Below are positions 81 through 50,117 of a stretch of DNA of 64,000 nucleotides, piece by piece. The stretch is from Haemophilus pittmaniae (GTDB taxonomy: Bacteria; Pseudomonadota; Gammaproteobacteria; Enterobacterales; Pasteurellaceae): positions 1,860,001 to 1,924,000 of the forward strand of contig NZ_LT906463.1 of NCBI RefSeq assembly GCF_900186995.1, read 5' to 3'. Position 1 is the first letter of the stretch; each line of letters starts with the position of its first letter. Below the pieces are notes generated by a model. The model had not been told where the DNA came from, did no database searches, and saw only the letters and a list, made by a program, of their open reading frames with translations. The position numbers and the translations under genes were made by a program.

Positions 81-116
81 AACGGGAGGACGCGCTCAAA
101 ACGCCCTCCCGTTTTT
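81..116 (+). terminator. Rho-independent terminator after mpl
   Basis: A hairpin with arms CGGGAGG and CCTCCCG is followed by a T run. The right arm lies inside the tail of dispersed repeat copy 1, so the repeat contributes half of the terminator. Confidence 0.75.
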
Positions 117-167
117 CAACGTTTTGCCCAAAATAGCAGCTAACTCATTGATTTTATTATAGTTGCC
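98..167 (-). repeat. Dispersed ~70-bp intergenic repeat, copy 1
   Basis: On the minus strand this reads head AATAAAATCAATGAGTTA, an AT-rich middle, then a CGGGAGGGCGTTTT tail. The tail faces the 3' end of mpl. See the finding on the repeat family. Confidence 0.7.
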
Positions 168-203
168 TTTAAAACCTATAATGCATTGATTTTCTTAAAT
201 AAA

Positions 204-233
204 AAAGAAGCCCCGAAAACTCGGGGCTTTTTC
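204..233. terminator. Bidirectional terminator after ftsH
   Basis: The GC-rich inverted repeat AAGCCCCGA / TCGGGGCTT has A and T flanks and ends next to the ftsH stop codon. Confidence 0.8.
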
Positions 234-2141
234 TTAGACATCTTGTTGATTATCGTCTTGCGCTTTATCTGTCGGTTGCTCTGCTTCCGTACGTTGGGCT
301 TGGCCATTCTCTTGAACCTCTTCCCAACCACTCGGTGCGGTCACCGGACGACGTTCCATCAATTGTTTGATTTGCTCTTCTTCGATGGTTTCATATTTCA
401 CCAAAGCATCTTTCATGGCATGTAGAATATCCATATTATCAAGCAACAATTGACGCGCTCGATCATAATTGCGGGCAATTAGCGCTCGCACTTCTTCATC
501 GATCAAATGAGCGGTTTCATCGGACATATGTTTCGCTTTCGCCATGGAGCGGCCAAGGAATACTTCGCCTTCATCTTCCGCATATAGAATCGGGCCAAGT
601 TTTTCCGAGAAGCCCCATTGGGTCACCATATTACGGGCAATATTAGTTGCCACTTTAATATCATTGGATGCACCCGTGGAAACATTTTCCTCGCCATAAA
701 TCAATTCTTCCGCCAAACGTCCCGCATACATGGTGGACAATTTGCTTTCCAATTGTTTTTGACTAATGCTAATTTGATCGCCTTCCGGTAAGAAGAAGGT
801 AACCCCTAAAGCGCGGCCGCGTGGAATAATGGTCACTTTGTGCACCGGATCGTGTTCAGGTACTAAATACCCCACAATCGCATGTCCAGCTTCATGATAA
901 GCCGTAGATTCTTTTTGTTTCTCGGTCATCACCATGGTACGGCGTTCCGGTCCCATGTTGATCTTATCCTTGGCTTTTTCAAATTCCAACATAGTCACTG
1001 TTCGTTTATCGGAACGTGCAGCAAACAATGCGGCCTCATTCACCAAGTTGGCTAAATCCGCACCGGAGTACCCCGGTGTACCACGTGCTAAGGTCATTGC
1101 ATTAACATCCGGAGCAACCGGTACTTTACGCATATGCACTTTAAGGATCTGTTCACGACCTTTCACATCCGGTAAACCAACCACAACCTGACGGTCAAAA
1201 CGTCCCGGACGGGTTAATGCTGGGTCCAAGACATCCGGTCGGTTGGTTGCAGCAATCACAATAACGCCATCATGTCCGCCGAAACCATCCATTTCCACCA
1301 ACATTTGGTTTAGGGTTTGTTCGCGTTCATCATGTCCACCGCCTAGGCCTGCACCACGTTGACGACCAACTGCATCGATTTCATCGATAAAGATTAAACA
1401 AGGCGCATTTTTCTTCGCCTGTTCAAACATATCACGAACCCGTGAAGCACCAACCCCGACAAACATTTCCACAAAATCAGAACCGGAAATGGTAAAAAAT
1501 GGCACTTTGGCCTCACCGGCAATGGCTTTTGCCAATAAGGTTTTACCGGTTCCCGGCGGTCCTACCATCAAAATACCTTTTGGAATGCGGCCACCGAGTT
1601 TTTGGAATTTATTTGGATCACGTAAGAAATCAACAATTTCGCCCACTTCTTCCTTCGCTTCATCACAACCGGCCACATCGGCAAAGGTGACTTTGATTTG
1701 ATCCTGGGTAAGCATCTTGGCACGGCTTTTCCCAAAGCTCATGGCCTTGCCGCCACCACCTTGCATTTGACGCATAAAGAAAACCCACACCCCAACCAAG
1801 AACAACATCGGGAACCAGGAAATCAAAATTTGTGATAAAAGACCGCGACGTTCAATCGGAGTACCTTCCACTTTGACTTTTTTGCTTAATAAATCGTCGA
1901 GCAATTTATTATCTTCTAATGGTGGCATCACTGTAGTGTATTTAGCACCATCGGTTTTGGTCACGGCAATCTCATTGGCATCAAAGCGCACTTCTTTTAC
2001 CTGACCATTACTCACATCATAAGCGAATGTGGTGTAATCCGTCGTATCTCCCGATGCCGATGAATTGAAACTTTGGTATGCAGTCATCATGACAACCGCA
2101 ACCACAATCCACAAGACGAGATTTTTGACCATATCGTTCAA
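234..2141 (-). CDS. ftsH: ATP-dependent zinc metalloprotease FtsH
   Basis: FtsH is a membrane-anchored AAA+ protease that degrades misfolded membrane proteins and short-lived regulators. The 635-residue protein has two N-terminal membrane segments (about residues 5-22 and 104-123), a Walker A GPPGTGKT (194-201), Walker B FIDEID (about 251-256) and the zinc site HEAGH (416-420). The C-terminus is polar and Q/D/E-rich. The start chosen is a TTG at 2141, seven bases after an AAGGAAGG ribosome site; an ATG at 2132 aligns better with E. coli FtsH (MAKNLILW) but lies too far from that site. It follows rlmE on the same strand with about 108 bp between, the usual rlmE-ftsH order. Confidence 0.97.
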
Positions 2142-2249
2142 AGTAAAACCTTCCTTAATTAATCAATAAAAACGCGTAAAAAGATACTATATTTACCCGC
2201 TAAGAAAAAGCGATTAATGCAATCAGCCTTTCGGCAATAACACGAACCA

Positions 2250-2882
2250 CTAACAGCCCTTAAAGCCCGAAGCGACAATATAAACCTCGCGCGAACGACC
2301 TCGGGAAGCCTCGGGTTTGCGCACCTTCACTGCATTAAACAGCGAACGGATTTCTTTTAAATAGTCATCAAAGCCTTCCCCTTGGAACACTTTCACAACA
2401 AAGGACCCTTTCAAGGCCAACACTTGACGGCACATATCCAAAGCTAATTCCACCAAATACATAGCGCGTGGAATATCCACCGATGGCATACCGCTAAAAT
2501 TCGGTGCCATATCAGACATCACCACATCAACCTTAGCTTCGCCTACCCGCTCTAATAAAGCATTTAGGACATTTTCCTCGCGAAAATCACCCTGTAGGAA
2601 ATCTACTCCGACAATGGGTGACATTTCCAAAATATCACAGGCAATTACCCGACCTTTGGAACCGATTTGGCTTACTGCGTATTGCGACCAACCACCCGGC
2701 GCTGCACCTAAATCGACCACAGTCATTCCCGGTTTAAATAAACGATCCGTTTGCTGAATTTCATCAAGTTTAAAATAGGCTCGTGAGCGCAATTTTTGTT
2801 TATGCGCTTTTTGTACAAACGGATCCTTAAAATGTTCGTTTAGCCAACGTGAAGAACTCGCCGAACGTTTTTTCTTTCCCAT
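2250..2882 (-). CDS. rlmE: 23S rRNA 2'-O-ribose U2552 methyltransferase RlmE
   Basis: RlmE (RrmJ/FtsJ) methylates the ribose of U2552 in 23S rRNA in the 50S subunit. The 210-residue product matches the usual length of about 209. It begins with a basic stretch ([13 protein letters not shown]) and has the SAM-binding motif [15 protein letters not shown] at about residues 55-69 and the acidic MSDMAPN motif around residues 122-128. K38, D~124, K~164 and E~199 equivalents of the K-D-K-E catalytic set appear conserved by eye. It lies directly upstream of ftsH and divergent from yhbY. Confidence 0.96.
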
Positions 2883-3030
2883 AATCTTTATCTTTTGTTC
2901 TATTTTTTGTAGTCGTTTCGTCTATATTTGGGTACAATTCGCCAAATTCAAGACGGTCGGTTGCGGAAGTTGATGAAATATCGAATATTTTCTGCGATAC
3001 CCACCACTCATTTCATTTAAAGGGTTTCTT

Positions 3031-3330
3031 ATGACAACTTTATCAACCAAACAAAAACAATATTTAAAAGGCCTAGCACATCACCTTAATCCGGTGGTTA
3101 TGCTAGGTGCCAATGGCCTTACCGAAGGTGTTTTGGCAGAAATCGATAACGCGCTCAATCACCATGAACTAATTAAAGTCAAAGTAGCCGGTGCCGATCG
3201 CGACACCAAACAGCTAATTATCGATGCCATCGTGCGCGAAACCAAGGCTTCTAACGTACAAACCATCGGCCATATTTTAGTGCTGTATAGACCGAGTGAA
3301 GAGGCAAAAATTCAACTGCCCCGCAAATAA
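3031..3330 (+). CDS. yhbY: Ribosome-assembly RNA-binding protein YhbY
   Basis: This is a 99-residue single CRM-domain protein that associates with pre-50S ribosomal particles in other bacteria. It shows the family pattern: the N-terminal segment LSTKQKQYLKGLAHHLNPVV, the GANGLTEGV loop and the central HELIKVKV strand. It is divergent from rlmE and convergent with greA, with a terminator shared between yhbY and greA. The length and the start, with GGGTTTCTT before the ATG, are typical. Confidence 0.95.
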   Translation: MTTLSTKQKQYLKGLAHHLNPVVMLGANGLTEGVLAEIDNALNHHELIKVKVAGADRDTKQLIIDAIVRETKASNVQTIGHILVLYRPSEEAKIQLPRK

Positions 3331-3335
3331 TAGTT

Positions 3336-3363
3336 ATCCCCTCCACACGGAGGGGATTTTTTA
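3336..3363. terminator. Terminator between convergent yhbY and greA
   Basis: The perfect hairpin ATCCCCTCC-ACAC-GGAGGGGAT is followed by a T run on the plus strand and touches the greA stop codon. Confidence 0.85.
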
Positions 3364-3840
3364 TTAGAGATAATTAACTTCGAGAATCTCGAATTCAACG
3401 GAGCCGCCCGGTGTAGCGATGGTTACGCTATCATCCAGCTCTTTACCAATCAAACCACGGGCAATCGGTGAATTAACTGAAATTAATCCTGCTTTAATAT
3501 CGGCTTCATCATCACCGACGATTTGATAAGTCACTTCCTCATCCGTATCGACATTCACCAATACAACCGTCGCCCCAAAAATCACCTTACCGTTATTTGG
3601 TAATTTAGTGACATCAATTACTTGGCAGTTAGCCAGTTTACCTTCGATTTCCTGAATACGACCTTCACAAAAACCTTGTTGCTCACGGGCTGCATGATAT
3701 TCGGCATTTTCTTTCAAATCGCCGTGCTCACGAGCTTCGGCAATTGCTTTAATGATTTCGGGACGGCGGGTATTTTTTAAGAAATCCAGTTCTTCACGCA
3801 GTAGCTCCGCACCACGCACCGTCATTGGAATCTGTTTCAT
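3364..3840 (-). CDS. greA: Transcription elongation factor GreA
   Basis: GreA binds in the RNA polymerase secondary channel and stimulates cleavage of backtracked transcripts. The 158-residue protein has the standard length. It has an N-terminal coiled coil (about residues 10-75) whose tip carries the acidic pair in the [12 protein letters not shown] region, and a C-terminal FKBP-like domain ending [11 protein letters not shown]. An AAGGAAAAG ribosome site precedes the ATG. It is divergent from dacB, as in related genomes. Confidence 0.97.
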
Positions 3841-3994
3841 TACGCTTTTCCTTAAAATTTAACAAAAAGAAAACCACGGCAGCGCAACCGCGTTGCCGTA
3901 GTCATTAAGCTTTTATGAGAAAAATCATTTACTCATATTCAATCGGGGCTTATTATTATGCGCCTTAAGAAAAATAGCAACCCAAAGCCGTAAA

Positions 3995-5431
3995 ATGATT
4001 AAATTTTCTTCACGTTCCTTACAATTTTCTGCCGCCCTACTTGGCGGACTCGCTTTTAATGCCGCTGCTGATGTCGATGTTTCCCAATATGCCAAATTAT
4101 TACCGGAAGGGGCTTCCGTCGGCTTTATTGCAGAAAACATCAATCAACAAAAAATTATTGCCGACAATAATGGAGCTACCTTTATGTTGCCGGCCAGTAC
4201 TCAAAAGGTATTTACGGCTGTCGCCGCCAAGTTGGTGTTGGGAGATGATTTTAAATTCAAAACCTCCCTACTAACCAATGGCCAAATCGCCAACGGCGTA
4301 TTAAATGGTAATCTCATTGTACAATTCACCGGCGATCCTGATCTCACCAGTGGCCAGCTGTATAGCCTATTGGCCGAATTATCCAAACAGGGAATCAATA
4401 AAATCAACGGTGATCTGATCCTAGATACCTCCGTATTCGCTAGCCATGACCGCGGTTTGGGTTGGATTTGGAACGATCTGACTATGTGTTTTAATTCTCC
4501 GCCGGCAGCCGCAAATATCGACAATAACTGTTTCTATGCGGAATTGGATGCGAATCAACCGGTCGGAGAAACCGTCAAAATCAATGTGCCGGCTCAATAC
4601 CCAATTCAAGTATTCGGCCAAGTTTATATTGCCGATGCTCAGGAAGCGCCTTATTGCCAATTGGATGTTGTGGTGCATGACAACAATCGCTATCAGGTCA
4701 AAGGCTGCTTGGCTCGTCAAGCTAAACCCTTTGGCTTAAGTTTTGCGGTGCAGGATACCGATGCTTACGCTGCGGCAATTATTCAACGCCAATTGAAACG
4801 TTTGAATATCGAATTTAATGGCACCGTCAAACTGCCACAAAAACCGCAACAAGGCACCTTATTAGCCGAACATTTTTCCAAACCGTTGCCGGAATTACTG
4901 AAAAAAATGATGAAAAAATCCGACAACCAAATTGCTGACGGGCTATTCCGTGCCATCGCCTACCATTATTACAAACGCCCAGCGTCCTTCCAGCTTGGTA
5001 CCATGGCGGTGAAATCGGTATTACAAAAACAAGGCATCAAATTTGGTAACAGTATTTTGGCCGATGGTTCCGGTTTATCCCGACATAATTTGGTGGCACC
5101 GAAAACCTTACTCTCGGTGCTCGAGTACATTGCTAAAAACGAAGACAAACTACATTTAATGGAAACCTTCCCGATTGCCGGGGTAGACGGTACTATCAGC
5201 GGCCGTGGCGGCTTGATCAACGCACCATTGGTAAAAAATGTTATCGCCAAAACCGGTTCTCTAAAAGGGGTTTACAACTTAGCCGGCTTTATGACTAACG
5301 CCCGCGGTGAAAAAGTCGCCTTCGTACAATTTATTAACGGCTACTCCACCGGTGAATTGGAAAGCAAAACCAAACGCGGCCCATTAGTACAATTTGAAAG
5401 CGGCGTATATAATGCCCTGTATAAGGAATAA
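3995..5431 (+). CDS. dacB: D-alanyl-D-alanine carboxypeptidase/endopeptidase PBP4 (DacB)
   Basis: DacB is a periplasmic class C penicillin-binding protein that trims and cleaves peptidoglycan cross-links. The 478-residue product starts with a signal peptide cleaved near NAAADV. The three active-site motifs are present: SxxK as STQK (68-71), SDN (about 310) and KTG in AKTGSLKG (about 418-420). The large insert domain between motifs 1 and 2 is present, as in E. coli PBP4 (477 residues). It is divergent from greA and followed by a hairpin made partly from repeat copy 2. Confidence 0.96.
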   Translation: MIKFSSRSLQFSAALLGGLAFNAAADVDVSQYAKLLPEGASVGFIAENINQQKIIADNNGATFMLPASTQKVFTAVAAKLVLGDDFKFKTSLLTNGQIANGVLNGNLIVQFTGDPDLTSGQLYSLLAELSKQGINKINGDLILDTSVFASHDRGLGWIWNDLTMCFNSPPAAANIDNNCFYAELDANQPVGETVKINVPAQYPIQVFGQVYIADAQEAPYCQLDVVVHDNNRYQVKGCLARQAKPFGLSFAVQDTDAYAAAIIQRQLKRLNIEFNGTVKLPQKPQQGTLLAEHFSKPLPELLKKMMKKSDNQIADGLFRAIAYHYYKRPASFQLGTMAVKSVLQKQGIKFGNSILADGSGLSRHNLVAPKTLLSVLEYIAKNEDKLHLMETFPIAGVDGTISGRGGLINAPLVKNVIAKTGSLKGVYNLAGFMTNARGEKVAFVQFINGYSTGELESKTKRGPLVQFESGVYNALYKE

Positions 5432-5456
5432 CAGGCATTGGCAAACGCCATGCCAT
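5432..5456 (+). terminator. Hairpin after dacB
   Basis: The inverted repeat GGCATTGGC-AAAC-GCCATGCC lies right after the stop codon and is followed by ATTTTC. Its right arm is the tail of repeat copy 2. The T run is weak. Confidence 0.5.
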
Positions 5457-5509
5457 TTTCCGGAGTTTTCTTTAAAACAACAGCTAACTCATTGATTTTA
5501 TTATGGTTG
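5441..5509 (-). repeat. Dispersed ~70-bp intergenic repeat, copy 2 (contains the dmsD start codon)
   Basis: On the plus strand the sequence runs from the AAACGCCATG tail, through GGAGTTTT, to the head TAACTCATTGATTTTATT followed by ATGGTTG. That ATG (5503-5505) is the start codon of the downstream gene. Confidence 0.7.
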
Positions 5510-6126
5510 ATTTAAAAAACGAATTACCGGCCGAAATTGCGCTCTGCGGACGTTTGTTAGGTGCATTATTATACTATCCACCGCAAGATGAACGCCTTGC
5601 GCCAATGCGTGATTTTTTCCAACACACTGATTGGCCTGCGGCTTGGCCTTTTCAACAGGATCAAGCACTGTTAACAGAAGCTGCTGCACTACTAGCAAAA
5701 GATCCTCAAGATGCACTTGATGAGCAATATCAACGCCTGTTTATTGGCCCGAATGCGCTACCTGCGCCGCCTTGGGGATCGGTTTATTTGGATAAGGAAT
5801 CGGTGATTTTTGGCGATTCATTATTGGAATTACGCGCCTTTATGCGTCAGCACGGCATTCATTTTGAGACAGCCTTGGATGAACCGGAAGATCATATTGG
5901 ACTGATGCTAATGCTAAGCGCCTACTTAGTAGAAAATAATCCTTCGCTGCTCCCAGAATTCTTCAGCCAACATCTGCTGACTTGGGCACCTCACCAATTA
6001 AGCTTACTGGCTGCACAACAGGATTGTCCATTTTATGCAGCGCTAGCATTGCTAGCCAAACAAGCACTCAATGAATGGCAGCAGGCATACCGACTTGAAG
6101 TTCCCGAACGGACCTTTTATCGCTAA
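5503..6126 (+). CDS. dmsD: Tat proofreading chaperone, DmsD/TorD family
   Basis: This 207-residue cytoplasmic protein resembles DmsD, which binds the twin-arginine leader of DMSO-reductase-type catalytic subunits until cofactor loading is complete. The diagnostic block LFIGPNALPAPPWGSVYLDKESVIFGDS (about residues 81-108) and the later EPEDHIGLML segment are conserved. Its likely clients, DmsA and the broken YnfE-like protein, are encoded 14-20 kb away. The ATG lies inside repeat copy 2, an in-frame TAA sits just upstream, and I see no good ribosome site, so the start is fixed by the repeat but initiation may be weak. Confidence 0.9.
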   Translation: MVDLKNELPAEIALCGRLLGALLYYPPQDERLAPMRDFFQHTDWPAAWPFQQDQALLTEAAALLAKDPQDALDEQYQRLFIGPNALPAPPWGSVYLDKESVIFGDSLLELRAFMRQHGIHFETALDEPEDHIGLMLMLSAYLVENNPSLLPEFFSQHLLTWAPHQLSLLAAQQDCPFYAALALLAKQALNEWQQAYRLEVPERTFYR

Positions 6127-6130
6127 ACTC

Positions 6131-6173
6131 AAGGCGTGCATCTTGCAATCTGCGATGCACGCCTTATTTTTCC
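6131..6173 (+). terminator. Rho-independent terminator after dmsD
   Basis: The long hairpin AAGGCGTGCATC / GATGCACGCCTT is followed by ATTTTT. Confidence 0.85.
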
Positions 6174-6204
6174 TTTAAGCTTGTCATGAAATGAAAGGAA
6201 AACC

Positions 6205-7263: not shown

Positions 7264-7266
7264 TCT

Positions 7267-7291
7267 TAAAAACCGCCCTTCGGCGGTTTTT
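7267..7291. terminator. Terminator after ycjF
   Basis: The hairpin AAAAACCGCC-CTTC-GGCGGTTTTT is near-perfect, with A/T flanks on both sides. Confidence 0.85.
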
Positions 7292-7344
7292 CTTTATGCG
7301 AACCGATAACTGAACTGAAAACCCGAACTCAATCTCACTTCTTA

Positions 7345-7414
7345 AACTATCCATAATAAAATCAATGAGTTATATGCATTTTATGGAAAAACTCTGAAAA
7401 TCGGAGGGGCGTTT
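7345..7414 (+). repeat. Dispersed ~70-bp intergenic repeat, copy 3
   Basis: The head AATAAAATCAATGAGTTA, then AAAAACTCTGAAAAT, then the tail CGGAGGGGCGTTT. The copy sits between convergent ycjF and pykA with the tail facing the pykA 3' end. Confidence 0.75.
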
Positions 7415-7462
7415 GATAAACAGCTCCAAGATGAAAAGATCAAAATAGTCAAAAAGGAAATA

Positions 7463-7492
7463 AAAAACGGTGGCATCAAGCCACCGTTTTTA
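7463..7492. terminator. Terminator after pykA
   Basis: The hairpin AAAAACGGTGGC-ATCAA-GCCACCGTTTTT lies just past the pykA stop and can work on either strand. Confidence 0.88.
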
Positions 7493-7511
7493 GTCAACAT
7501 TAAACCTTAAA

Positions 7512-9158: not shown

Positions 9159-9173
9159 CTGCGCCGTTTTTAC

Positions 9174-11869: not shown

Positions 11870-11899
11870 AAAACGCCCGCAAATGCGGGCGTTTTTTTA
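11870..11899. terminator. Terminator after the TonB receptor
   Basis: The hairpin AACGCCCGC-AAAT-GCGGGCGTT is followed by a T run. Confidence 0.9.
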
Positions 11900-11905
11900 T
11901 TTTTA

Positions 11906-11974
11906 AATCAATTGTAATAAAATCAATGACTTACATGTTGTTTTTGAGAAAACTCTGAAAATCAATAGGGCGTT

Positions 11975-11976
<2 letters not shown>
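11906..11976 (+). repeat. Dispersed ~70-bp intergenic repeat, copy 4
   Basis: The head AATAAAATCAATGACTTA, then GAGAAAACTCTGAAAAT, then the tail TAGGGCGTTTT. The tail runs into the cysB stop codon at 11975. The neighbours are convergent. Confidence 0.75.
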
Positions 11977-19002: not shown

Positions 19003-19053
19003 ACCGTTCAAAAGAAAAACGAAAAGAAATCAACACCTTATATATTTTCAAAG

Positions 19054-19121
19054 CAACTCTAATAAAATCAATGAGTTAGATTCAATTTTTTGCAAAACTC
19101 TAAAAAACAAGGGGGCGTTTT
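19054..19121 (+). repeat. Dispersed ~70-bp intergenic repeat, copy 5
   Basis: CAACTCT, the head AATAAAATCAATGAGTTAG, then CAAAACTCTAAAAAAC, then the tail GGGGGCGTTTT. The tail is one arm of a terminator and faces the dmsC 3' end. Confidence 0.8.
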
Positions 19122-23160: not shown

Positions 23161-23244
23161 TGGTTAAGATTAACAAGAATTATTCTCACGGAATTTTAGT
23201 CACTATTCTTCAGGTTATTTGTCGGGGAAATCGCATTTTTCAAC

Positions 23245-23312
23245 CAACTTCAATAAAATCAATGACTTAGCTTTATTTTTAGGAAGAACATCTAAAATCA
23301 GAGGGGCGTTTT
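23245..23312 (+). repeat. Dispersed ~70-bp intergenic repeat, copy 6
   Basis: CAACTTC, the head AATAAAATCAATGACTTAG, then GAACATCTAAAATC, then the tail AGAGGGGCGTTTT. The tail faces the 3' end of the ynfE-like gene and its AGAGGGG pairs with CCCCTCT downstream. Confidence 0.75.
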
Positions 23313-23328: not shown

Positions 23329-25746
23329 TTAGCCAACCAACTCGATCTGCACCAAATTAGATTGCTGTGGATTTCCCTTGGCTAATGGCGATGGGCGTTG
23401 GGTAGTAATCACATTCATAGAGCCGTTATGATCGATTTTATCGCCTGCCATATCGGCCTGGTGCCAAGCGCCCTGTGGAATGGCTAGCACGCCCGGCATA
23501 ATGCGTGGCGTAACCTTAGCCGGCAGGCGGGTTTCACCATGTTCATTGAACAGTCGCACAAATGCTCCATCAGTAATATTTTTGGCTGCTGCATCAAGCG
23601 GATTGAGCCATACTTCTTGAGGATTTGCGGCCTGTAGAATGGCCACATTGCCATAGGAGGAATGGGTACGGCCTTTGTAGTGGAAGCCGACCAATTGGAA
23701 CGGATATTGCTGCCGTTTAGGATCTTCATAACCATTAAAACCATAATGGTAAATCGGCAACGGATGGATGATATCAGGCGCCTCCAACTGCCAAGTAGCA
23801 GCTAGCTTGGCCAAGCTTTCGGAATAAATTTCAATCTTGCCACTCGGGGTTTTGAGCGGATTTTTTTCAGGGTCTTCGCGAAATGCCTTATACGCCACCA
23901 AATGTCCCTTCGGATCGCGTTTTTTGAATATGCCTTGCGCTTTCATTTGTTCATATTCCGGAAAATCCGGTAATTTTTTGCGCATATCTTCATATACAAA
24001 TTTAAGCCAATCCTCTTGGCTACGACCTTCGGTAAATTGTGCTTCAATACCTAGGCGTTTGGCTAATTCGCTCATCATCCAATAAATTGAGCGACGCTCA
24101 AATTTCGGCGTGGTCGCTGGTTGGCCGAAAATTAAATAGCCCATATTACCGGCATATTCGTTTGGCGTGAGATCGGCCTGCTCAGCCACCATCAAATCAG
24201 GTAACAATAAATCCGCGTAGCGGGCCGAACTGGTCAAGAAATTATCGATGACCACGATCATTTCGCATTTACTTTCATCCTGCAAAATATCGTGGGTACG
24301 GTTGATATCGGAATGCTGGTTTACCAGGGTATTGCCGGCATAATTCCAAATAAACTTAATAGGTACATTCAGTTTATCCTTTCCTTTGATGCCGTCGTGT
24401 AAGGCGGTCAATTCAGATCCACGCGCAACGGCATCAGTCCACATAAAGACAGGAATTTTGGTTTTCACCGGATTTTTTCCTGCCGGAAAATAGGTAAACG
24501 GAATCTTATAGGTTTCTTCACGAGCGCCGGAATTACCACCATGGATCCCCACATTGCCGGTTAAAATTGCTAGCATTGCCACCGCTCGTACGGAAAGTTC
24601 ACCATTAGATTGACGTTGAATTCCCCAGCCCTGGGTAATGCAGCACGGTTTGGTGGTGGCAATCTCCCGTGCTAAGCGGATAATTGTCTCTTCCGGAATA
24701 CCGGTAATTGGTGCCGCCCATTTTGGCGTTTTGGCAATGCGATCATCTCCATCACCTAAGATATAAGCTTTGTAATGGCCATTTTTAGGTGCACTCGGCG
24801 GTAAGGTTTTCTCGTCATACCCCACGCAATATTTATCCAAGAATGGTTGATCCACTAAATTTTCGGTGATCATTACATAAGCCATAGCAGCCGCTAATGC
24901 CGCATCAGTCCCTGGACGAATCGGAATCCATTCATCTTCCCGGCCCGCAGCCGTATCAGAATAACGCGGATCGATAATAATCATCTTGGCGCGAGAAACC
25001 TCACGAGCCTACTCCAAATGATAGGTCACACCGGCACCGCTGCTACGATTTTCCATTGGGTTATTACCGAAATAGACAACTAACTTCGAATTGATAATAT
25101 CCGAGGTGCTATTGCCCTGATTGGTACCGTAAGTGTAAGGCATTGCGGTGAGAATCTGGGCTCGGCTATACGTACCGTAATGACTTAAAAATCCGCCATA
25201 ACAGTTCATTAAACGGGCTACCATCGAGGTTGAGGCTGAGGAACGAGTAATATTCCCCGCGCTGATGCCTGAGCTGTAATTGATGTACACCGCTTCGTTA
25301 CCATATTCCTGGACGATGCGTTGCAGATTCGTTGCAATCATGTCTAAAGCCTCATCCCAACTGATACGTTCAAATTTGGCCTCTCCTCGCTTGCCCACCC
25401 GTTTCATCGGATATTTCAAACGATCAGGATGATTCATCACCCGCCGAATAGAACGCCCCCTCAGACAGGCTCGGATCTGATGATTACCGTAAATATCTAG
25501 GCCGGTATTATCGGTTTCTACCCGATACACCTCGTTATCGCGCACCTTTAAACGTAGCGCACAACGACCATGGCAATTGCCGGCACATACATTCCATACG
25601 CTGGTTTCTTGAATTTCCTTAGCCGGTTTAGCTAAGGCATTGAAAGGTAAAGTGAATTGACTGATGCCTGCAATACTGCCGGCTACACCCGCCGCCTGTA
25701 AGAAACGACGACGGCTAAGGGATAGATCTGTTGAATGCCCCACCAT
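23329..25746 (-). pseudogene. YnfE/YnfF-type DMSO-reductase-family catalytic subunit, interrupted by one amber codon
   Basis: The reading frame is full length (806 codons) but carries one TAG at 25009-25011 (codon 246), where DmsA next door has Gln and, as I recall it, E. coli YnfE has Lys; a single base change explains it. Upstream are the Tat leader (SRRRFLQAAG), the [4Fe-4S] site (CAGNCHGRCAL) and a GNITRSSASTSMVARLMNC active-site region that resembles YnfE/YnfF (selenate-reductase type) more than DmsA. Downstream the frame is intact to KGNPQQSNLVQIELVG. A restart at 24984 would lack the iron-sulfur domain. It could be a recent pseudogene, a sequencing error or suppressed; GGGAGA precedes the start. 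Confidence 0.85.
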
Positions 25747-26005
25747 CATATTCTCCCGGAATAATGAATGAATAAACAAAAAAACAAACTAAAAATGAAA
25801 AAAATTCACGACGCAGTTTATCGATAAGCCCAAATGAGAAAAATGACGTAAATCAAAATAATCTAAATTCGCTTAAAAAAGCCTTTTCTGCCAGGATTTG
25901 TGCATTGACTATCCACTAAAAGCCGCTATGCTAGCGGCGTCCATTATTGGACTCGATATAATGTGTTAAGGCTTTAACTATTAACGTCTCATCAAGGATA
26001 GAAAC

Positions 26006-28411: not shown

Positions 28412-28629
28412 AAATTGCTCCTTTGTTGATAAAAACCACTTTCATTCTACTGAAATTTATAGTGACTTTGTTTGATATTAACAATCAGAGCAATCGCTAT
28501 ATCTTGCTTATAAAAAAATCGGCGCGGATTCTACCCAAACCTGAAATAAAAGGCAATCCTTCAGGCTGGTTAGCCTTAATTTTTTAGCTTTTTAACAAAA
28601 AATGTCACATTTCTTTGTGATTTAAAAAT

Positions 28630-28698
28630 CAACATTAATAAAATCAAATACTTACAATCTATTTTAGATAAAACTTTTAAAAGCAAGGGGGCGTTTTT
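28630..28698 (+). repeat. Dispersed ~70-bp intergenic repeat, copy 7
   Basis: A more diverged head (AATAAAATCAAATACTTA), then AAAACTTTTAAAAG, then the tail GGGGGCGTTTTT, facing the ycjX 3' end. The rest of the 312-bp gap (28412-28723) is AT-rich; I see no gene in it, and the short plus-strand reading frame starting at 28699 runs antisense into ycjX. Confidence 0.65.
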
Positions 28699-28723
28699 AT
28701 GTCACATTTAACGTACCATTCAA

Positions 28724-34816: not shown

Positions 34817-35616
34817 TGTCATTATTGGAAGTTGAAGATCTATGCAAAACCTTTGAAGGGCCGGCTCACTTTTTCGGCAGTCAACGCTTTAACGCAGTGG
34901 ATAATGTCAGTTTTACCCTTGCACCGAAGCAAACGCTCGCAATTATTGGCAAAAACGGTTCGGGCAAATCGACCCTGTTGAAAATGATCGCAGGTATTAC
35001 CCCGCCCACATCGGGGCAAATTCGATTTAACGGCAAACCATTGAGTTATGCCGATTCCTGCTTTCGCGCCCAACATATCCGAATGCTTTTTCAGGATGCC
35101 AATTCGGCCTTTAATCCACGCCAAAATATCGGTCAAATTTTAGATGCACCGTTACGTCTGCTGACTGATTGGGATGAAGAAACGCGCGATAAAAAGATTT
35201 TTCATACCCTACAGTTGGTCGGTCTGTATGCCGATTACACCAATTTAAAAATCCATCATTTACCGGCCAGCCAACGCCAACGGGTAGCTCTAGCGCGTGC
35301 ATTGATTTTAGAACCGGAAATTATTCTAATCGATGATGCTCTGAGTGCCGCCGATGCCAGCGTACAGATACAATTACTTAATCTAACCCTCGATCTACAA
35401 ACCCACTTTGGGCTCTCCTATATTTATGTGGGGCAAGATTTAGGGTTAATCAAACATATGGCGGATTATTTATTGGTGATGGATGAAGGGAAAATGATCG
35501 AGTTCGGCACGCCCCATGAACTATTCACTAATCCCAAAACCACCGTTACCCGCCTAATGGTCGAAAGCTATTTTGGTCACTTATTGGACGATAGTGCCTG
35601 GGCACAGACAAGTTAA
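34816..35616 (+). CDS. sapF: Sap transporter ATP-binding protein SapF
   Basis: SapF is the second Sap ATPase, 266 residues, OppF-like. It has Walker A GKNGSGKS (about 43-50), a degenerate signature [16 protein letters not shown] and Walker [13 protein letters not shown]. The Walker B reads D-D where most ABC ATPases have the catalytic D-E, which may lower hydrolysis at that site. It ends the sap operon here; I do not see a sapZ-like gene after it, only repeat copy 8 and the BASS-type gene. Confidence 0.92.
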
Positions 35617-35631
35617 TTATTAATTTTCAAA

Positions 35632-35700
35632 CCAATCTCAATAAAATCAATGGCTTACATATTGTTTTAGCAAAAACTTTTATTTTCAAAGGGGCGTTTT
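35632..35700 (+). repeat. Dispersed ~70-bp intergenic repeat, copy 8
   Basis: CCAATCTC, the head AATAAAATCAATGGCTTAC, then AAAAACTTTTATTTTC, then the tail AAAGGGGCGTTTT, which pairs with AAAACGTCCTTT to 35712. This is the one copy whose tail does not face a gene 3' end; the next gene starts at 35805. Confidence 0.75.
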
Positions 35701-41301: not shown

Positions 41302-41322
41302 GATAATGTTCCTTTTGATTAA

Positions 41323-41338: not shown

Positions 41339-41556
41339 CATTTTTAAAATTAATAAATCCAGTGTCAAGGACATACTCAATGAAATTCCCTTAATCTAAA
41401 GATAAAAGTAAACGCTTTTTACTAGATATTATATTTCTTCATAGGCAATGTATGATTTTTAAGGGGGCAAGGGAAAGAATGAATGGGAAACAAAGGTAAC
41501 TAAAAAAGTTACCCTTGTTTAGAATGGATTTTATACAACAAATTAATATCATCTAT

Positions 41557-43419: not shown

Positions 43420-43521
43420 AAACTTGATTTGGTTAGCAAAAAAGTGCGCGTAGCGTATCACAAGCAGGCGTTAAAAACTATGCTATAATCCACCGTCTAT
43501 TTGCTTAATTAAGGATTTATT

Positions 43522-44079
43522 ATGGATGCTTTAAGCCTTTTAACGAGCCGTCGCTCGACTAAAAAACTGAGCGCACCGGTACCGAATACCGAGCAACTCA
43601 ATGCATTATTTGCTGCCGCACAACGCGCGCCCGATCACGGTAAATTACAGCCTTATCACTTTGTCGTTATGCAAGGCGCCGGCCTGCAACGTTTGGGCGA
43701 ATTATTGAAAGCCGCAGTAGAAGAATTCGAACTGGGTGAGGAGCGCTTAAAGAAAGCAGAAAATTTCGCTGCTCGTGCACCTATGGTCATTGCGGTAATT
43801 GCGAAAATTAACCAAGAAGCGGAAAAAGTGCCGGGTTGGGAACAGATGCTAACCGCCGGCTGCGCCACCTATGCCTTGCAATTGGCTGCTGCGGCGCAAG
43901 GCTTCAGCAGCTTTTGGGCGAGCGGTCCCTTTGTCAATGGTAGTGCTTTACGTCAATCCTTGGGCTGTCGGGAGCAGGATAAAATTGTCGCCCTATTACA
44001 GCTTGGTACGGCAATCGAGCCTTCCGATAAGCCATTACGAACTACTAATCTAGAAGAACTGGTCGACTACTGGGAATAA
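43522..44079 (+). CDS. ydjA: NAD(P)H nitroreductase family protein YdjA
   Basis: This 185-residue flavin-dependent nitroreductase-fold protein starts MDALSLLTSRRSTKKLSAPVP and is collinear with E. coli YdjA (183). The FMN-contact stretch RRST near the N-terminus, RAPDHGKLQPYHF and the GCREQDKIVALLQLGT block are conserved. The physiological substrate is unknown. It is divergent from sppA and convergent with fdhD; repeat copy 9 follows. Confidence 0.9.
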   Translation: MDALSLLTSRRSTKKLSAPVPNTEQLNALFAAAQRAPDHGKLQPYHFVVMQGAGLQRLGELLKAAVEEFELGEERLKKAENFAARAPMVIAVIAKINQEAEKVPGWEQMLTAGCATYALQLAAAAQGFSSFWASGPFVNGSALRQSLGCREQDKIVALLQLGTAIEPSDKPLRTTNLEELVDYWE

Positions 44080-44093
44080 TTTCATTTTAAAAT

Positions 44094-44160
44094 CAACTCT
44101 AATAAAATCAATGACTTAGAATTGATTTTTGAGAAAACTCTAATAATTAAGGGGGCGTTT
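44094..44160 (+). repeat. Dispersed ~70-bp intergenic repeat, copy 9
   Basis: CAACTCT, the head AATAAAATCAATGACTTAG, then GAGAAAACTCTAATAATT, then the tail AAGGGGGCGTTT facing the fdhD 3' end. This copy is closest to my consensus. Confidence 0.8.
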
Positions 44161-44171
44161 GGCCGGCGGAC

Positions 44172-44975
44172 TTAGTCCTTGGTTAAACGCTCACTACCGC
44201 AATAAACATTGGCTCGACCCGGACGAACAAAACCAAGCAGGGTCAAATGATAGCGCTCAGCCATAGCGACTGCTAAATCAGTGGCGGCAGAAATTGCTGC
44301 TAACATTTCAATCCCGCAACTAATGCTTTTCTGTACCATTTCATAACTGGCTCGACTGGACACCAATACAAAGCCTTGCGGCTTGCCTGCTTTAGCATGC
44401 CAACCAAGTAATTTATCCAACGCGACATGCCGCCCCACATCTTCGCGAATCGCCAACATTTCACCTTCAGCCGTAAAAAACGCTGCAGCATGAGTAGCGC
44501 CGGTAATCTGCGCCAATTCCTGATGCGCTTGTAATGTTTCTAAGCATTGATCTAACTGCTGTGGATTGACTTTTAAATGCTGCTCGAGCGGAGTTAATTT
44601 TTTATATACCTGATCGATTTGCTCGGTGCCGCAAATACCACAACCGGTGCGTCCGGTTAAGGTGCGCCGATGCTCCTTGAGCGCCATAAAACGACGCGAG
44701 GAAAGCTCAATTTGCACTTCAATACCATTACATACTTCCACCACATCAATACCATAAATCTCCTGTGGTTGCTCAATAATACCTTCGGTAAGGGAAAAAC
44801 CGAGGGCAAAATCCGCCAAATCCTGAGGTGTGGCCATCATCACGGTATGGGCAATGCCGTTATATACCAAAGAAATTGGCACTTCACAGGCGAGGTTATC
44901 GGTTTTGTCGGTTAAGGAAAATTCTTCGTCAGAACGACGAAAAAATTGGATATTTTTTTCGAGAAATCGATTCAT
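44172..44975 (-). CDS. fdhD: Formate dehydrogenase sulfur carrier FdhD
   Basis: FdhD transfers sulfur from IscS to the molybdenum cofactor before its insertion into formate dehydrogenase, and is essential for FDH activity. The 267-residue protein has the reactive CGIC motif (Cys112 and Cys115) and the conserved [30 protein letters not shown] segment (about 161-190). It is divergent from fdnG with 278 bases between, so both can be controlled together. Confidence 0.95.
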
Positions 44976-45134
44976 AACAATGGTTAATATTGAGAGCTAT
45001 TTTCATTTAACGAGGTATTTACTTTTTTTTAACAAAAATAGGTAAATTTGTGATCTAACGCAAACTTTTCCCCCGAACTACCCCGTAATGATTGTAGATT
45101 TTTGGTTAAAAAATAAGTATTCTGAGCCACCTTT

Positions 45135-45176
45135 AATTGGTTTATATCGACCAATTGGGCGTTACAATATTGTAAC
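45135..45176. promoter_or_regulatory. Two palindromes between fdhD and fdnG
   Basis: AATTGGT-N8-ACCAATT (45135-45156) is followed by the perfect 16-bp palindrome GTTACAATATTGTAAC (45161-45176), 78-119 bases before fdnG. They look like operator sites for an unidentified regulator. Confidence 0.4.
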
Positions 45177-45253
45177 GAAATTCAATCATTTAGTCAGACG
45201 AATTTTTACTATCTAATACTCTAACGTCAATAGTCGTTGGAAAAGGAGTGATT

Positions 45254-48200
45254 ATGCAGGTCTCCAGAAGAAAATTCTTTAAGATCTGTGCAGGTGGTAT
45301 GGCGGGAACTTCTGCCGCGATGCTGGGTTTTGCCCCGGCTACGGCATTGGCAGCACCACGCGAATATAAACTTTTGCGTGCTTTTGAATCCCGTAACACT
45401 TGTACTTATTGTGCGGTAAGCTGTGGTATGTTGCTATATAGTACCGGCAAACCTTACGATACCTTAAGCAGCCATACAGGCACCAATGTCCGTTCAAAAT
45501 TATTCCACCTCGAAGGTGACCCAGACCATCCAGTAAGCCGTGGTGCACTCTGTCCTAAAGGTGCGGGCGCATTGGATTACATCAACAGTGAAAGCCGTAA
45601 TCTATATCCAGAATACCGCGCGCCGGGTTCCGATAAATGGCAACGTATTTCTTGGGAAGATGCAATTAAACGCGTTGCTCGTTTACTCAAAGATGACCGT
45701 GATGCTAACTTTGTTGAAAAAGACGCAAGTGGCAAAACCGTTAACCGTTGGACAACTACAGGTATTATGACCGCCTCCGCCATGAGCAATGAGGCTGCAC
45801 TTCTTACCCATAAATGGGTGCGAATGTTAGGCATGGTGCCGATGTGTAACCAAGCGAATACTTGACACGGACCAACGGTAGCAAGTCTTGCTCCATCATT
45901 TGGTCGCGGTGCGATGACAAATAACTGGGTTGATATCAAAAACGCCAATCTTATTCTTGTGCAAGGTGGTAACCCTGCTGAAGCTCACCCTGTTGGCTTC
46001 CGTTGGGCGATCGAAGCGAAGAAAAACGGTGCAAAAATCATCGTGGTTGATCCTCGCTTTAACCGTACAGCTTCTGTTGCTGACCTTCATGCACCAATTC
46101 GTTCCGGTTCTGATATTGCATTCTTAATGGGTGTGATCCGTTACCTATTGGAAACCAATCAAATTCAACACGAATACGTAAAACACTATACCAATGCTTC
46201 ATTCTTAGTTGATGAAGGCTTCAAATTTGAAGATGGTTTATTCGTTGGCTTTGATGAAGAAAAACGTGCTTACGATAAATCTAAATGGAATTACCAATTC
46301 GATGAGAATGGTTTCGCTAAACGTGATATGACCTTACAAGATCCACGTTGTGTAATTAACATCTTGAAAGACCACGTTTCTCGCTATACGCCAGAAATGG
46401 TTGAACGTATCACTGGTGTAAAACAAAAAACCTTCTTACAAATCTGTGAAGAAATTGGTAAAACCTCTGCGCCAAATAAAACCATGACGCACTTATACGC
46501 GTTAGGTTTTACGGAACACACAATCGGTTCACAAAACATTCGTTCAATGGCGATGATCCAATTACTCTTAGGTAATATGGGTATGCCGGGGGGCGGTATT
46601 AATGCATTACGTGGACACTCAAATGTTCAAGGTACTACAGATATGGGCTTATTGCCGATGTCTTTACCGGGTTATATGCGTCTACCAAATGACAAAGATA
46701 CCTCTTATGAGCAGTATATCAATGCGATTACGCCAAAGGATATCGTACCAAACCAAGTAAACTACTATCGTAATACTTCGAAATTCTTCGTCAGTATGAT
46801 GAAAACGTTCTACGGTGATAAAGCCACCAAAGAAAATGGTTGGGGCTTCGATTTCTTACCAAAAGCAGACCGCTTATACGATCCTATCACTCATGTTAAG
46901 TTAATGAATGATGGCAAATTAAACGGTTGGATCTTACAAGGTTTCAACGTATTGAACTCATTACCAAACAAAAACAAAACTGTTGCAGGTATGAGCAAAT
47001 TGAAATTCTTAATCGTAATGGATCCGCTTCAAACTGAATCCTCTGAATTCTGGAAAAACTTTGGTGAATCAAACAATGTAAACCCAGCAGATATTCAAAC
47101 TGAAGTATTCCGTTTACCAACCACCTGTTTCGCAGAAGAAGATGGTTCTATTGCTAACTCAGGCCGTTGGGCACAATGGCACTGGAAAGGCTGTGACCAA
47201 CCGGGTGAAGCCTTACCAGATGCTGAAATTCTTTCTATGATTCGTGAAGAAATGCATCATCTTTATCAAAAAGAAGGTGGTCGCGGTATCGAATCATTTG
47301 AAGCTATGACTTGGAACTATGCTCAACCGCATTCGCCAAGCGCTGTAGAATTAGCGAAAGAGTTAAATGGTTATGCACTTGATGACCTTTACGATTCTAA
47401 TGGCAACTTAATGTATAAAAAAGGCCAATTACTCAGTGGTTTTGCCCATTTACGTGATGACGGTACCACCTCATCGGGTAACTGGATCTACGTTGGTCAA
47501 TGGACCGAAAAAGGTAACCAAACCGCAAACCGTGATAACTCTGACCCATCGGGTTTAGGTTGTACATTAGGTTGGGGCTTCGCCTGGCCGGCAAACCGCC
47601 GTATTCTTTATAGTCGCGCATCACTTGATATTAACGGTAATCCTTGGGATAAAAACCGTCAATTAATCAAATGGAATGGTAAAAACTGGAACTGGCATGA
47701 TGTAGCTGACTATGGTACACAACCACCGGGTAGCGATACGGGGCCGTTCATTATGTCTGCAGAAGGTGTAGGCCGTTTATTCGCTGTAGATAAAATTACA
47801 TCAGGTCCATTACCGGAACACTATGAACCAATTGAAAGTCCGATTGACACAAACCCACTACATCCAAATGTAGTCTCCGATCCGACTGTTCGTATTTATA
47901 AAGAAGACCGTGAATTTATCGGCTCAAACAAAGACTTCCCTTATGTGGCAACGACTTATCGTTTGACCGAGCACTTCCACAGTTGGACAGCTCAATCTGC
48001 ATTAAATATCATCGCGCAACCACAACAATTCGTGGAAATCGGTGAAAAATTAGCTGCAGAAAAAGGTATCCAAAAAGGTGATATGGTGAAAATTACTTCT
48101 CGCCGTGGCTACATCAAAGCCGTTGCAGTGGTAACGAAACGTTTGAAAGATTTAGAAGTCGACGGACGCACCGTACATCACGTGGGTATTCCAATTCACT

Positions 48201-48337
48201 GGAACATGAAAGCCTTAAATGGTAAAGGTAATCGTGGTTTTGCGACTAATACCTTAACGCCTTCTTGGGGTGAAGCGGTCACTCAAACACCGGAATATAA
48301 AACATTCTTGGTAAACATTGAGAAAGCGGAGGCATAA
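45254..48337 (+). CDS. fdnG: Formate dehydrogenase-N major subunit FdnG (selenocysteine at UGA 45863-45865)
   Basis: FdnG oxidises formate to CO2 in the periplasm and feeds electrons through FdnH and FdnI to menaquinone. The 1027-residue product (counting Sec) starts at ATG 45254 after AGGAG. It has a Tat leader (SRRKFFK, residues 4-10), a [4Fe-4S] site (CTYCAVSC plus the later ALCPKG), and an in-frame TGA at codon 204 in NQANT-U-HGPTVA, the known Sec position of this family. A SECIS hairpin follows at the right distance. The frame then runs open to 48337. It is not a frameshift or nonsense pseudogene. It heads fdnGHI. Confidence 0.97.
45863..45900 (+). promoter_or_regulatory. Bacterial SECIS element
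   Basis: Eleven bases after the UGA, GGTAGCAAGTCTTGCTCC (45877-45894) folds as GG-(bulged U)-AGCAA, loop GUC, UUGCU-CC. The bulged U, GU in the loop and 11-base spacing are the known SelB-recognition features. Confidence 0.9.
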
Positions 48338-48338
48338 C

Positions 48339-49274
48339 ATGGCAGGAAATGGTCAAGGCGTTCAAACGCAAGACATTATTAAGGTCTCCGCTACGTCAGG
48401 CTTAACGCCGGCACCTCAAGCGCGAGATCATAAAGTTGAAGTAGCAAAATTAATCGACGTATCCACCTGTATCGGTTGTAAAGCCTGTCAGGTGGGCTGT
48501 TCAGAGTGGAATGACATTCGTTCTGATGTTAATGCTCAATGTGTGGGGATCTACGATAACCCAGTAGATCTCAATGCAAAAGCATGGACTGTGATGCGCT
48601 TTAACGAAGTGGAAGAAAACGATCGTTTAGAATGGCTAATCCGTAAAGATGGCTGTATGCACTGTTCCGAACCAGGCTGTTTGAAGGCCTGCCCTTCACC
48701 GGGTGCGATTATCCAATACAAAAATGGTATCGTAGATTTCCAATCGGATAAATGTATCGGCTGTGGCTACTGTATTGCTGGCTGTCCGTTCAACATTCCA
48801 CGTATGAATCCAGACGATAACCGTGTGTACAAATGCACTCTTTGTGTGGATCGTGTTTCTGTAGGCCAAGAACCGGCCTGCGTGAAAACCTGTCCAACCG
48901 GTGCAATTCGTTTTGGTTCTAAAGAGGAAATGAAGGTTTATGCAGAACAACGCATCGCCGAATTAAAATCCCGCGGTTACGAAAACGCAGGACTTTATGA
49001 TCCGGAAGGTGTTGGCGGTACACATGTTATGTATGTATTACATCATGCCGATAAACCAGAACTTTATAGCGGTCTACCGAAAGATCCACAAATCGACCTC
49101 ACAGTAACCTTGTGGAAAGATATCTTGAAACCGGTAGCTGCGGTAGCAATGGGTGGTTTAGCACTTGCTGAAATCGGCCACTACTTAGCTGTAGGTCCAA
49201 ACGTTGAAGAAGACGTAGAAGATCATCACCATAAATTTGAAGAAGAAGATAAAAAAGGGGGCAAAGATGAGTAA
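48339..49274 (+). CDS. fdnH: Formate dehydrogenase iron-sulfur subunit FdnH
   Basis: FdnH is the electron-transfer subunit with four [4Fe-4S] cysteine clusters: [37 protein letters not shown] and [21 protein letters not shown]. It has a C-terminal membrane anchor helix ([20 protein letters not shown], about residues 256-275) and an acidic/histidine-rich tail. The ATG at 48339, after AGCGGAGG, is preferred to the upstream start inside fdnG. The 311-residue product overlaps fdnI by 8 bases. Confidence 0.95.
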
Positions 49275-49983
49275 GATTGAGATTAGCAATGATACTCGAA
49301 TCATTCGTCATAGAACGCCTGCTCGTTTCAGCCACTGGTTACTCGTAATCTGCTTTTTTATGACGATGTTCACTGGTGTGGCATTCTTCTTCCCAGATTT
49401 TGCGTGGTTAACTGAAATTTTAGGTACTCCGCAACTGGCTCGAGCAATTCACCCATTCACCGGTATTATTATGTTCGCTGCCTTTATTTTCCTTGGCTAT
49501 CTTTACTGGGATCACAACATTCCAGAGAAAAACGATATCCGTTGGTTAAAAGGCATGCTTGAAGTATTAAAAGGAAATGAACACGCTGTTGCTTATAACG
49601 GTAAGTATAACCTTGGTCAAAAAATGTTATTCTGGACATTGAACTTGGCGATGGTTACCTTGCTTGTAACTGGCATCATTATGTGGCGTCAATATTTCTC
49701 GCACTACTTCTCTATTCCAGTATTACGTTTTGCGATTTTACTTCACTCTTTAAGTGCATTCATGTTGTTTACCGGTATCTTGGTACACATGTACATGGCA
49801 TTCTGGGTGAAAGGCTCCATTCGTGGTATCGTGGAAGGTTGGGTAACCGTTCGCTGGGCGAAAAAACACCACCCTAAATGGTATCGTGATGAAGTCCTTC
49901 CTGAATTGGAAAAAGATCTCCAAAACGAAGCTGAAGGCAAACATGTCAAAACAAAAGCTTTATTTAAAGGCATCAATGGCTAA
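49267..49983 (+). CDS. fdnI: Formate dehydrogenase cytochrome b556 subunit FdnI
   Basis: FdnI is the membrane dihaem cytochrome b that passes electrons to menaquinone. The 238-residue protein has four membrane helices and the histidines expected for haem ligation ([40 protein letters not shown]). The start at 49267 lies inside the fdnH end, after GGGGG. It is the last gene of fdnGHI; I see no fdhE next to it. Confidence 0.94.
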
Positions 49984-49995
49984 AAACTAAAGCTT

Positions 49996-50025
49996 AAAAG
50001 AGCGACCAATTGGTCGCTCTTTTTA
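49996..50025. terminator. Terminator of fdnGHI
   Basis: The perfect hairpin AAAAGAGCGACCAATTGGTCGCTCTTTT. Confidence 0.9.
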
Positions 50026-50049
50026 TTATCGACAATATTTTTTCTAAAT

Positions 50050-50117
50050 AATACGCCCCACTATTTTCCAGAATTTTTCTAAAAATACAATATAAGTCAT
50101 TGATTTTATTATGGTTG
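50050..50117 (-). repeat. Dispersed ~70-bp intergenic repeat, copy 10
   Basis: On the minus strand: CAACCAT, the head AATAAAATCAATGACTTAT, then AGAAAAATTCTGGAAAAT, then the tail GTGGGGCGTATT facing the fdnI 3' end. Confidence 0.75.

Follow-up and report, generated by a model that had tools for sequence, protein, structure and literature searches.

The window examined in this work comprises the 64,000 bases from position 1,860,001 to position 1,924,000 of the single-contig genome (2,181,355 bp) of Haemophilus pittmaniae (assembly GCF_900186995.1, contig NZ_LT906463.1). Dispersed among the genes of this stretch are ten copies of a short repeat, all of which were present at the places where the original prediction, made from the letters of the window alone, had located them (Table 1). 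About 300 copies had been extrapolated from these ten for the entire genome, and the numbers observed are in good accord with this estimate. With the core pattern AATAAAATCAATGASTTA (GAS form) and up to two mismatches allowed, the whole genome contains 152 forward and 187 reverse matches, or 339 altogether, in comparison to a single match for the reversed pattern, and the exact core AATAAAATCAATNNNTTA is matched 299 times in the 2.18-Mb genome. The repeat family is real and genome-wide; further copies are not few, about 340 being counted. As described below, the element is a unit of about 93 bp, which is mostly intergenic, is located behind genes and is species-specific in relation to ten congeners. 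A scan of the window against Rfam at the gathering score matched only one tRNA and one selenocysteine insertion sequence (SECIS), with the repeat unmatched, and judging from titles and abstract openings, no such repeat is apparent for this bacterial group among the articles listed by the literature searches. The 12-base sequence AATAAAATCAAT is printed in five of the articles searched and the longer core strings in none; by the same criteria, none of the five appears to deal with bacterial repeats, one being on Fur binding.

Detailed analyses were carried out on a sample of 864 kb, consisting of 40 stretches plus the window (about 40% of the genome), in which genes were called without a gene finder as open reading frames (ORFs) of at least 60 or at least 80 codons. 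Since many of these stretches were chosen to contain known copies, densities in the sample are biased. It contains 183 core sites with up to two mismatches, of which 149 possess a tail by the criterion used, and in 140 copies the tail lies exactly at +51 relative to the core. Although the repeat is present as predicted, its length is not the approximately 70 bp that had been proposed, as the actual unit, of almost constant length, is about 93 bp long and includes an extra TTTT/AAA block upstream. In the 140 copies, TTTT and AAA are found at -16 to -9 and CAAC at -7, followed by the core at 0-17, TTTT at 25-28, AAAA at 33-36, either AAA or TTT at 43-45 and the tail GGGGCGTTT at 51-59. At columns 0-10 and 15-17 one base is present in 98-100% of these copies, a core conservation that is slightly biased by their preselection for at most two core mismatches, and AATAAAATCAAT is directly followed by TTA in 152 of 154 cases. 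Half elements are few: the core accompanies 84 of the 94 occurrences of GGGGCGTTT and is absent from 10, in comparison to 3-5 occurrences for unrelated 9-mers of similar composition. The A/T content shows a period of about 10.5 bp (10-11 bp) over the region from about -95 to +98, with frequency maxima near -45, -34 and -23 and, past the tail, near 71, 82 and 92. Based upon random shifts of the copies, this phase remains locked to the core past both ends of the conserved unit (p=0.0035 for -95 to -50; p=0.0005 for both -50 to -17 and +65 to +98), and further out the phasing is not significant (p=0.17 for -140 to -95; p=0.26 for +98 to +143; p=0.79 for +143 to +188). The core and the A/T tracts are nearly invariant while the other columns have been randomised. 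Seven pairs of neighbouring copies are arranged head to tail, 91-95 bp apart (one 106 bp), and two more close pairs are in inverted arrangement.

The possibility that the repeat is a structured element of 3' untranslated regions, which had been raised in the original prediction, received no support from RNAalifold, which detected no conserved pair in 47 copies, and a specific candidate, viz. an RNA hairpin between GAGTT and AACTC with covarying NNN variants, was ruled out since no pair was found. A coding origin was also rejected: stops are present in the sole near-open forward frame in 29 of 140 copies, in comparison to 25.9 with permuted columns, and the frame is therefore unprotected. All ten copies in the window do keep the frame NKIN(D/E/G)L open (copy 7 having NKIKYL instead), but this only mirrors the consensus, stops being as frequent as with permuted columns.

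The predicted placement of the copies at gene ends holds across the sampled genome. Among gaps of at least 100 bp, copies were counted in 60 of the 83 between convergent genes, 60 of the 146 between tandem genes and 5 of the 62 between divergent genes; these shares are inflated, because a copy itself lengthens its gap and the stretches are partly copy-selected, but the contrast between the classes should not arise in this manner. Only five of 154 copies overlap an ORF by more than 45 bp. The proposed fixed orientation relative to genes had to be abandoned, as 28 copies between co-directional genes are antisense and 37 are sense (p=0.32). By the ORF lists, the tail does face the adjacent 3' end in nine of the ten window copies, with copy 8 as the exception; however, the heads do so too in seven of the ten. 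Orientation relative to stop codons is random genome-wide, an outcome that the original prediction had regarded as speaking against its proposal, and the family is nonetheless real.

The tail had been described as one arm of the terminator of the adjacent gene, and this applies to some copies only, stems of at least 6 bp between the tail and the sequence downstream of it being found in 31% of 140 copies versus 22% with swapped flanks. This excess is what can be cited in favor of viewing the repeat as a transcription terminator or structured 3' untranslated element, an explanation that we consider highly improbable. In addition to the lack of any conserved RNA pair and the equal frequency of both orientations between tandem genes, a hairpin generally precedes the element where there is room for one. 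Stop codon and element are separated by no more than 200 bp in 157 cases; in 117 of these the spacer has a length of at least 25 bp, and a terminator-like hairpin is found in 78 of the 117, in comparison to 117 of the 523 3' flanks (80 bp each) that were used as controls (the spacer and control windows being unequal in length); no such hairpin is present in the remaining 40 spacers of less than 25 bp. The suggestion of a terminator-linked binding site thus comes near to the interpretation favored below, except that the element tends to sit past the terminator and not to form it.

The distribution of the repeat among related bacteria is very limited. The exact core AATAAAATCAATNNNTTA occurs 0-10 times per genome in 139 other genomes of the family and 0-2 times in the ten genomes of the same genus. 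The family-wide profile search that had been proposed was made with a sequence-only model built from 47 copies, taken at intervals of three from the 140 without gaps, and in the 139 genomes it identified a single full-length copy outside the species; as at most 33 candidates were scored per genome under strict filters, weak relatives could be missed. This copy lies between hisD and hisC in G070, a genome of another genus, and it was likely acquired by transfer, contamination of the assembly being also possible. The his genes were not found in the 864 kb sampled here. Elsewhere, the contig concerned (contig 51) has pieces that match two different regions of the H. pittmaniae genome at 94.7-95.7% identity and one that matches the congener G073 at 92.7%. 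A search of plasmid and phage collections with one copy as the query gave partial matches of 30-36 bp only.

To examine the origin of the repeat, gene gaps were compared with those in 800 kb of the 2.09-Mb genome of G073, with which 243 reciprocal best pairs are shared (median protein identity 86%). Seven conserved adjacent gene pairs, all tandem, contain a copy in H. pittmaniae, and in all seven the gap is longer than in G073, the extra length being 58, 93, 94, 95, 116, 116, and 233 bp. In comparison to these 7 of 7, only 8 of 77 element-free pairs (congener gap at least 15 bp) are longer by at least 50 bp (p=1.5e-5). As the copies come with extra DNA in every orthologous gap, the element arrived as an insert, the inserted unit being shorter than 200 bp in six of the seven gaps. 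This analysis supports many insertions of a unit of about 93 bp downstream of genes in the ancestry of this species. The identity of the 140 copies to their nearest neighbours has a median of 0.82 versus 0.81 in a simulation with independent columns, and a 95th percentile of 0.88 versus 0.83. By this comparison the unit spread by insertion, mostly long enough ago for the free columns to be randomised with the core being kept.

The comparison of gaps with and without the repeat, which had been suggested as a check, thus gave extra length in 7 of 7 gaps, but target-site duplication is at chance level in 130 copies. The view that the repeat is a mobile element is accordingly borne out in regard to its origin, with about 95 bp of extra DNA, although it lacks terminal inverted repeats and duplications are limited to about ten copies. 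In its full form, this explanation would regard the unit, of about 93-97 bp, as a selfish non-autonomous element that carries a site for integration host factor (IHF) and phased tracts for its own transposition or integration, gene ends being merely harmless sites. We regard this as possible, though rather doubtful. Its insertion as a unit, the head-to-tail arrays with their period of 91-95 bp, the absence from ten congeners and the single full-length copy in 139 genomes are all consistent with it, and the Correia elements or NEMIS of Neisseria (Neisseria miniature insertion sequences) likewise have an IHF site (PMC2229807). In ten copies TGTCACA occurs at the flanks, near -34 and +63, being exact on both sides in six of them and on one side in four, 13 of the 15 occurrences of ATGTCACATT in the 864 kb adjoin copies, and for a few pairs of copies the similarity, up to 0.92, exceeds that predicted from independent columns. 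However, this excess of similar pairs is modest, duplications in the other copies do not exceed chance, flank inverted repeats in the 140 copies are near the chance level, no conserved fold is present and half elements are few. The direct repeats around TGTCACA, at an almost constant distance, were observed at copy 7 of the window (Table 1) and at nine further copies.

An origin from integrase arm or attachment sites was also considered and rejected. The 16 viral contigs that match the left-half pattern are about the number expected by chance by our own estimate, a tail being seen, by eye, only in L192; ten selected ORFs near the sites in L181, L184, L185, L190, and L194 had no match to an integrase family, and three of them had no match at all. 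L192, a prophage-like contig from IMG/VR, has a complete copy close to its left end (position 92), and the core-like sequence AATAAA(A/T)TCAATAACTTA is present at four dispersed places in L184, a viral contig without obvious relation.

Table 1. Copies of the repeat and other features in the window. Coordinates of copies cover the unit from -34 to +59 relative to the core.
Feature	Position	Strand	Context
Copy 1	99..192	-	between convergent gene ends
Copy 2	5443..5536	-	
Copy 3	7321..7414	+	between convergent genes
Copy 4	11882..11975	+	between convergent genes, siderophore receptor / cysB
Copy 5	19027..19120	+	convergent, after cardiolipin synthase gene
Copy 6	23218..23311	+	
Copy 7	28603..28696	+	in the subset bracketed by direct repeats
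Copy 7, left direct repeat ATGTCACATTT	28602..28612	+	
Copy 7, right direct repeat ATGTCACATTT	28699..28709	+	
Copy 8	35606..35699	+	sole copy with tail facing a gene start
Copy 9	44067..44160	+	between convergent genes
Copy 10	50051..50144	-	between convergent genes
Second dimethyl sulfoxide (DMSO)/selenate-reductase-like gene	23329..25779	-	beside intact paralogue
Bacterial SECIS (Rfam SECIS_3)	45860..45918		between ORFs 45248-45865 and 45914-48337

Two other features of the window are included in Table 1. The second DMSO/selenate-reductase-like gene contains one in-frame stop in its first third, and the position of the SECIS would fit a selenoprotein gene that is read through UGA.

The variable columns of the element differ between the replication strands, which were assigned from GC skew alone, with switches near 0.6 and 1.66 Mb. 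Among 156 copies, the AAC/GAC variants are distributed 14:58 between the leading and lagging strands, GGG 29:9 and GAG 8:17 (p=8e-9 for the first two), so that AAC/GAC is mainly lagging and GGG leading, whatever the direction of the neighbouring genes, and this split is also seen if only tandem genes are considered (5:32 and 11:2, p=7e-6). The 37 free columns predict the strand with an area under the curve (AUC) of 0.92, in comparison to 0.57-0.74 by composition for six flank windows of equal size. These observations could point to a replication-strand-dependent site, read in a direction-aware manner by a fork- or recombination-linked protein, but we consider this quite improbable. The shift is in the same direction as the G/T excess that leading strands ordinarily show, and the strand difference in G/(G+C) for the pooled free columns (0.15) is about that of 4-fold degenerate sites (0.14), with 0.08 in element-free intergenic DNA; flanks of 120-179 columns reach AUC values of 0.76-0.80, and the orientation bias is mild (61 leading versus 95 lagging, p=0.008). 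As the direction is that of the leading-strand excess and the pooled skew resembles 4-fold degenerate sites, a mutational origin is possible, and mutation alone may explain much of the split, though the latter is sharper in the element than in equal-length flanks. When the strand was accounted for, dependence at p<0.05 was absent from 23 of the 28 column pairs that were tested.

In the interpretation that we favor, with a probability of about 0.45, the repeat would be a DNA-level nucleoprotein site outside of transcription units, comparable to the BIME/RIP repeats (bacterial interspersed mosaic elements and their repetitive IHF-binding palindromic variants) of Escherichia coli, and neither an RNA nor a coding element. 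The IHF consensus is WATCAANNNNTTR, and the consensus core of the repeat fits it at every defined base. IHF would bind the core and bend the DNA, and the helically phased A/T tracts on either side would let about 140-190 bp wrap around a protein, which is perhaps gyrase. The wrapping sites would lie in gaps past terminators, and most of all in convergent gaps, where positive supercoils accumulate, and the array would have a topological role like that of the E. coli BIME/RIP repeats, taking up supercoils or keeping adjacent transcription units apart. What has been observed is that the family spread as a unit, is of almost constant length, has a conserved core and phased A/T tracts and is placed mostly behind genes, and it is from these features that we infer the IHF binding, the gyrase wrapping and the topological role. 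The motif of E. coli gyrase is reported to extend over 130 bp with flanks that are periodic at 10.75 bp, and the enzyme is described as preferring BIMEs and as using BIME-2 too, along with regions that lie downstream of transcription units (PMC6379681).

A number of observations weigh against this interpretation. The symmetry centre of the A/T pattern is not firm, with r=0.42 near +6 (offsets 20-75) versus r=0.51 at +24.5 (offsets 12-50), and the GC-rich tail lies at neither of these candidate centres. The avoidance of divergent gaps is equally expected of a harmless insert, and the 40 short ones among the 157 stop-to-element spacers leave little room for a terminator. Further, binding of IHF or gyrase does not account for sister species needing no such site, nor for the free columns following the replication strand.

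Comparison with known systems reveals both similarities and differences. Like the repeat, BIME/RIP elements are present in hundreds of dispersed extragenic copies behind genes, and RIP variants carry an IHF site; however, repetitive extragenic palindromic (REP) units are palindromic, whereas our repeat is asymmetric and without a palindrome (0 conserved pairs in 47 copies). The strong gyrase sites of Mu and pSC101 share with it a long A/T-phased wrapping pattern (about 130 bp with a period of about 10.75 bp, versus 10-11 bp in the repeat), but they are known as single strong sites, and their cleavage-centre symmetry is not evident in the repeat. To our knowledge, an IHF core is not part of the definition of such sites. 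Correia elements, which are about 107-155 bp long, differ in possessing terminal inverted repeats of 24 bp, in duplicating their target and in forming stable RNA stem-loops, the repeat having no inverted repeat or fold. Their similarity lies in the 155-bp form, which is almost only intergenic, with an IHF site that is bound in vitro (PMC2229807). REPINs can form hairpins, in contrast to the repeat with no conserved pair, although REPIN/RAYT systems are likewise described as long-lived intragenomic repeat populations (PMC8049555).

The uptake signal sequences (USS) of the Pasteurellaceae resemble the repeat in their high copy number, the location of many at gene ends and a core with phased A/T tracts, but a USS is a 9-bp core, generated by mutation within coding as well as non-coding DNA, in contrast to an intergenic insert of about 93 bp, and the consensus of the repeat contains neither the Hin core AAGTGCGGT nor the Apl core ACAAGCGGT. 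The Hin-type USS AAGTGCGGT occurs only 205 times in this genome (reversed control 36), in comparison to 1276-1481 times in each of the ten congeners. H. pittmaniae has lost about 85% of the Hin-type USS that all ten congeners have kept, and coding (33 versus 298) and non-coding DNA (23 versus 243; our 864 kb versus 800 kb of G073) are both affected. In Haemophilus ducreyi, weak USS are reported to accompany broken competence genes (PMC1626085). No broken gene was found here among the competence genes checked, the reading frames of ComEC, DprA, ComN-Q, and RecC all being open.

The repeat could be viewed as a DNA-uptake signal that replaced the lost USS, with competent cells favoring DNA that contains it and this biased uptake keeping the core without a function for each copy. 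The loss in coding and non-coding DNA alike and the open competence genes are in line with this proposal. ComN, the proposed USS receptor (PMC12616744), shares 43-46% identity with its congener homologs (46% with G073), among which identities are 95-99%, and in the comparison with the G073 ComN this species is outscored by 80 of the 128 genomes from other genera that gave a match. Further, no coding 9-mer approaches the enrichment of the USS in G073 (at most 15-fold versus 73-fold). We nevertheless consider the proposal unlikely. USS are stated to arise by mutation and not by copying (PMC1626085), whereas the repeat is an insert that is far longer and hardly occurs in coding DNA; ComN does not stand out, since ComO, ComP, and ComQ (32-45% identity to congeners) are as diverged or more and RecC is at 53-54%; and the score of ComEC (653 bits) is below that of the congeners (760-782 bits). 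The ComN-ComQ genes and the adjoining RecC (L033, G000:C1:1242102-1244305) are far more diverged from the congeners than the median protein.

Two related candidates were rejected. Replacement of USS by the element at the same sites is suggested by the raw overlap (26 of 51 versus 51 of 190, p=0.002), but this fades on matching for gap size (25 of 48 versus 43 of 120, p=0.058, for congener gaps of at least 15 bp; 23 of 43 versus 42 of 101, p=0.20, for at least 40 bp). A new short uptake motif was not found either, none of the top coding 9-mers being of USS-like strength, although the context was inspected for one of these and the others were only counted. The 9-mer inspected, AGAGCTTGC, occurs at 55 places, nearly all in near-identical units of a repetitive protein that is Ser/Ala-rich by eye. 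The boldest reading, though not the best, combines these themes: after the loss of the Hin-type USS in the lineage, a mobile protein-wrapped unit of about 93 bp would have become the species' own uptake signal and assumed the role of self-recognition in transformation, with ComN as a receptor changing faster than phylogeny predicts. Its likelihood appears about as small as that of the uptake proposal itself, and we know of no precedent for an uptake signal spread by insertion instead of point mutation.

If the interpretation of the repeat as a protein-wrapped, BIME/RIP-like site is correct, then many of the spacers in a single species would have been remodelled about one wrapped-DNA element. 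The array would also provide a natural test of extragenic sites of the IHF/gyrase type, for which the sister species would be ready-made negatives. In addition, the loss of about 85% of the USS in an organism whose checked competence genes are open makes a change of uptake specificity directly testable in one organism.

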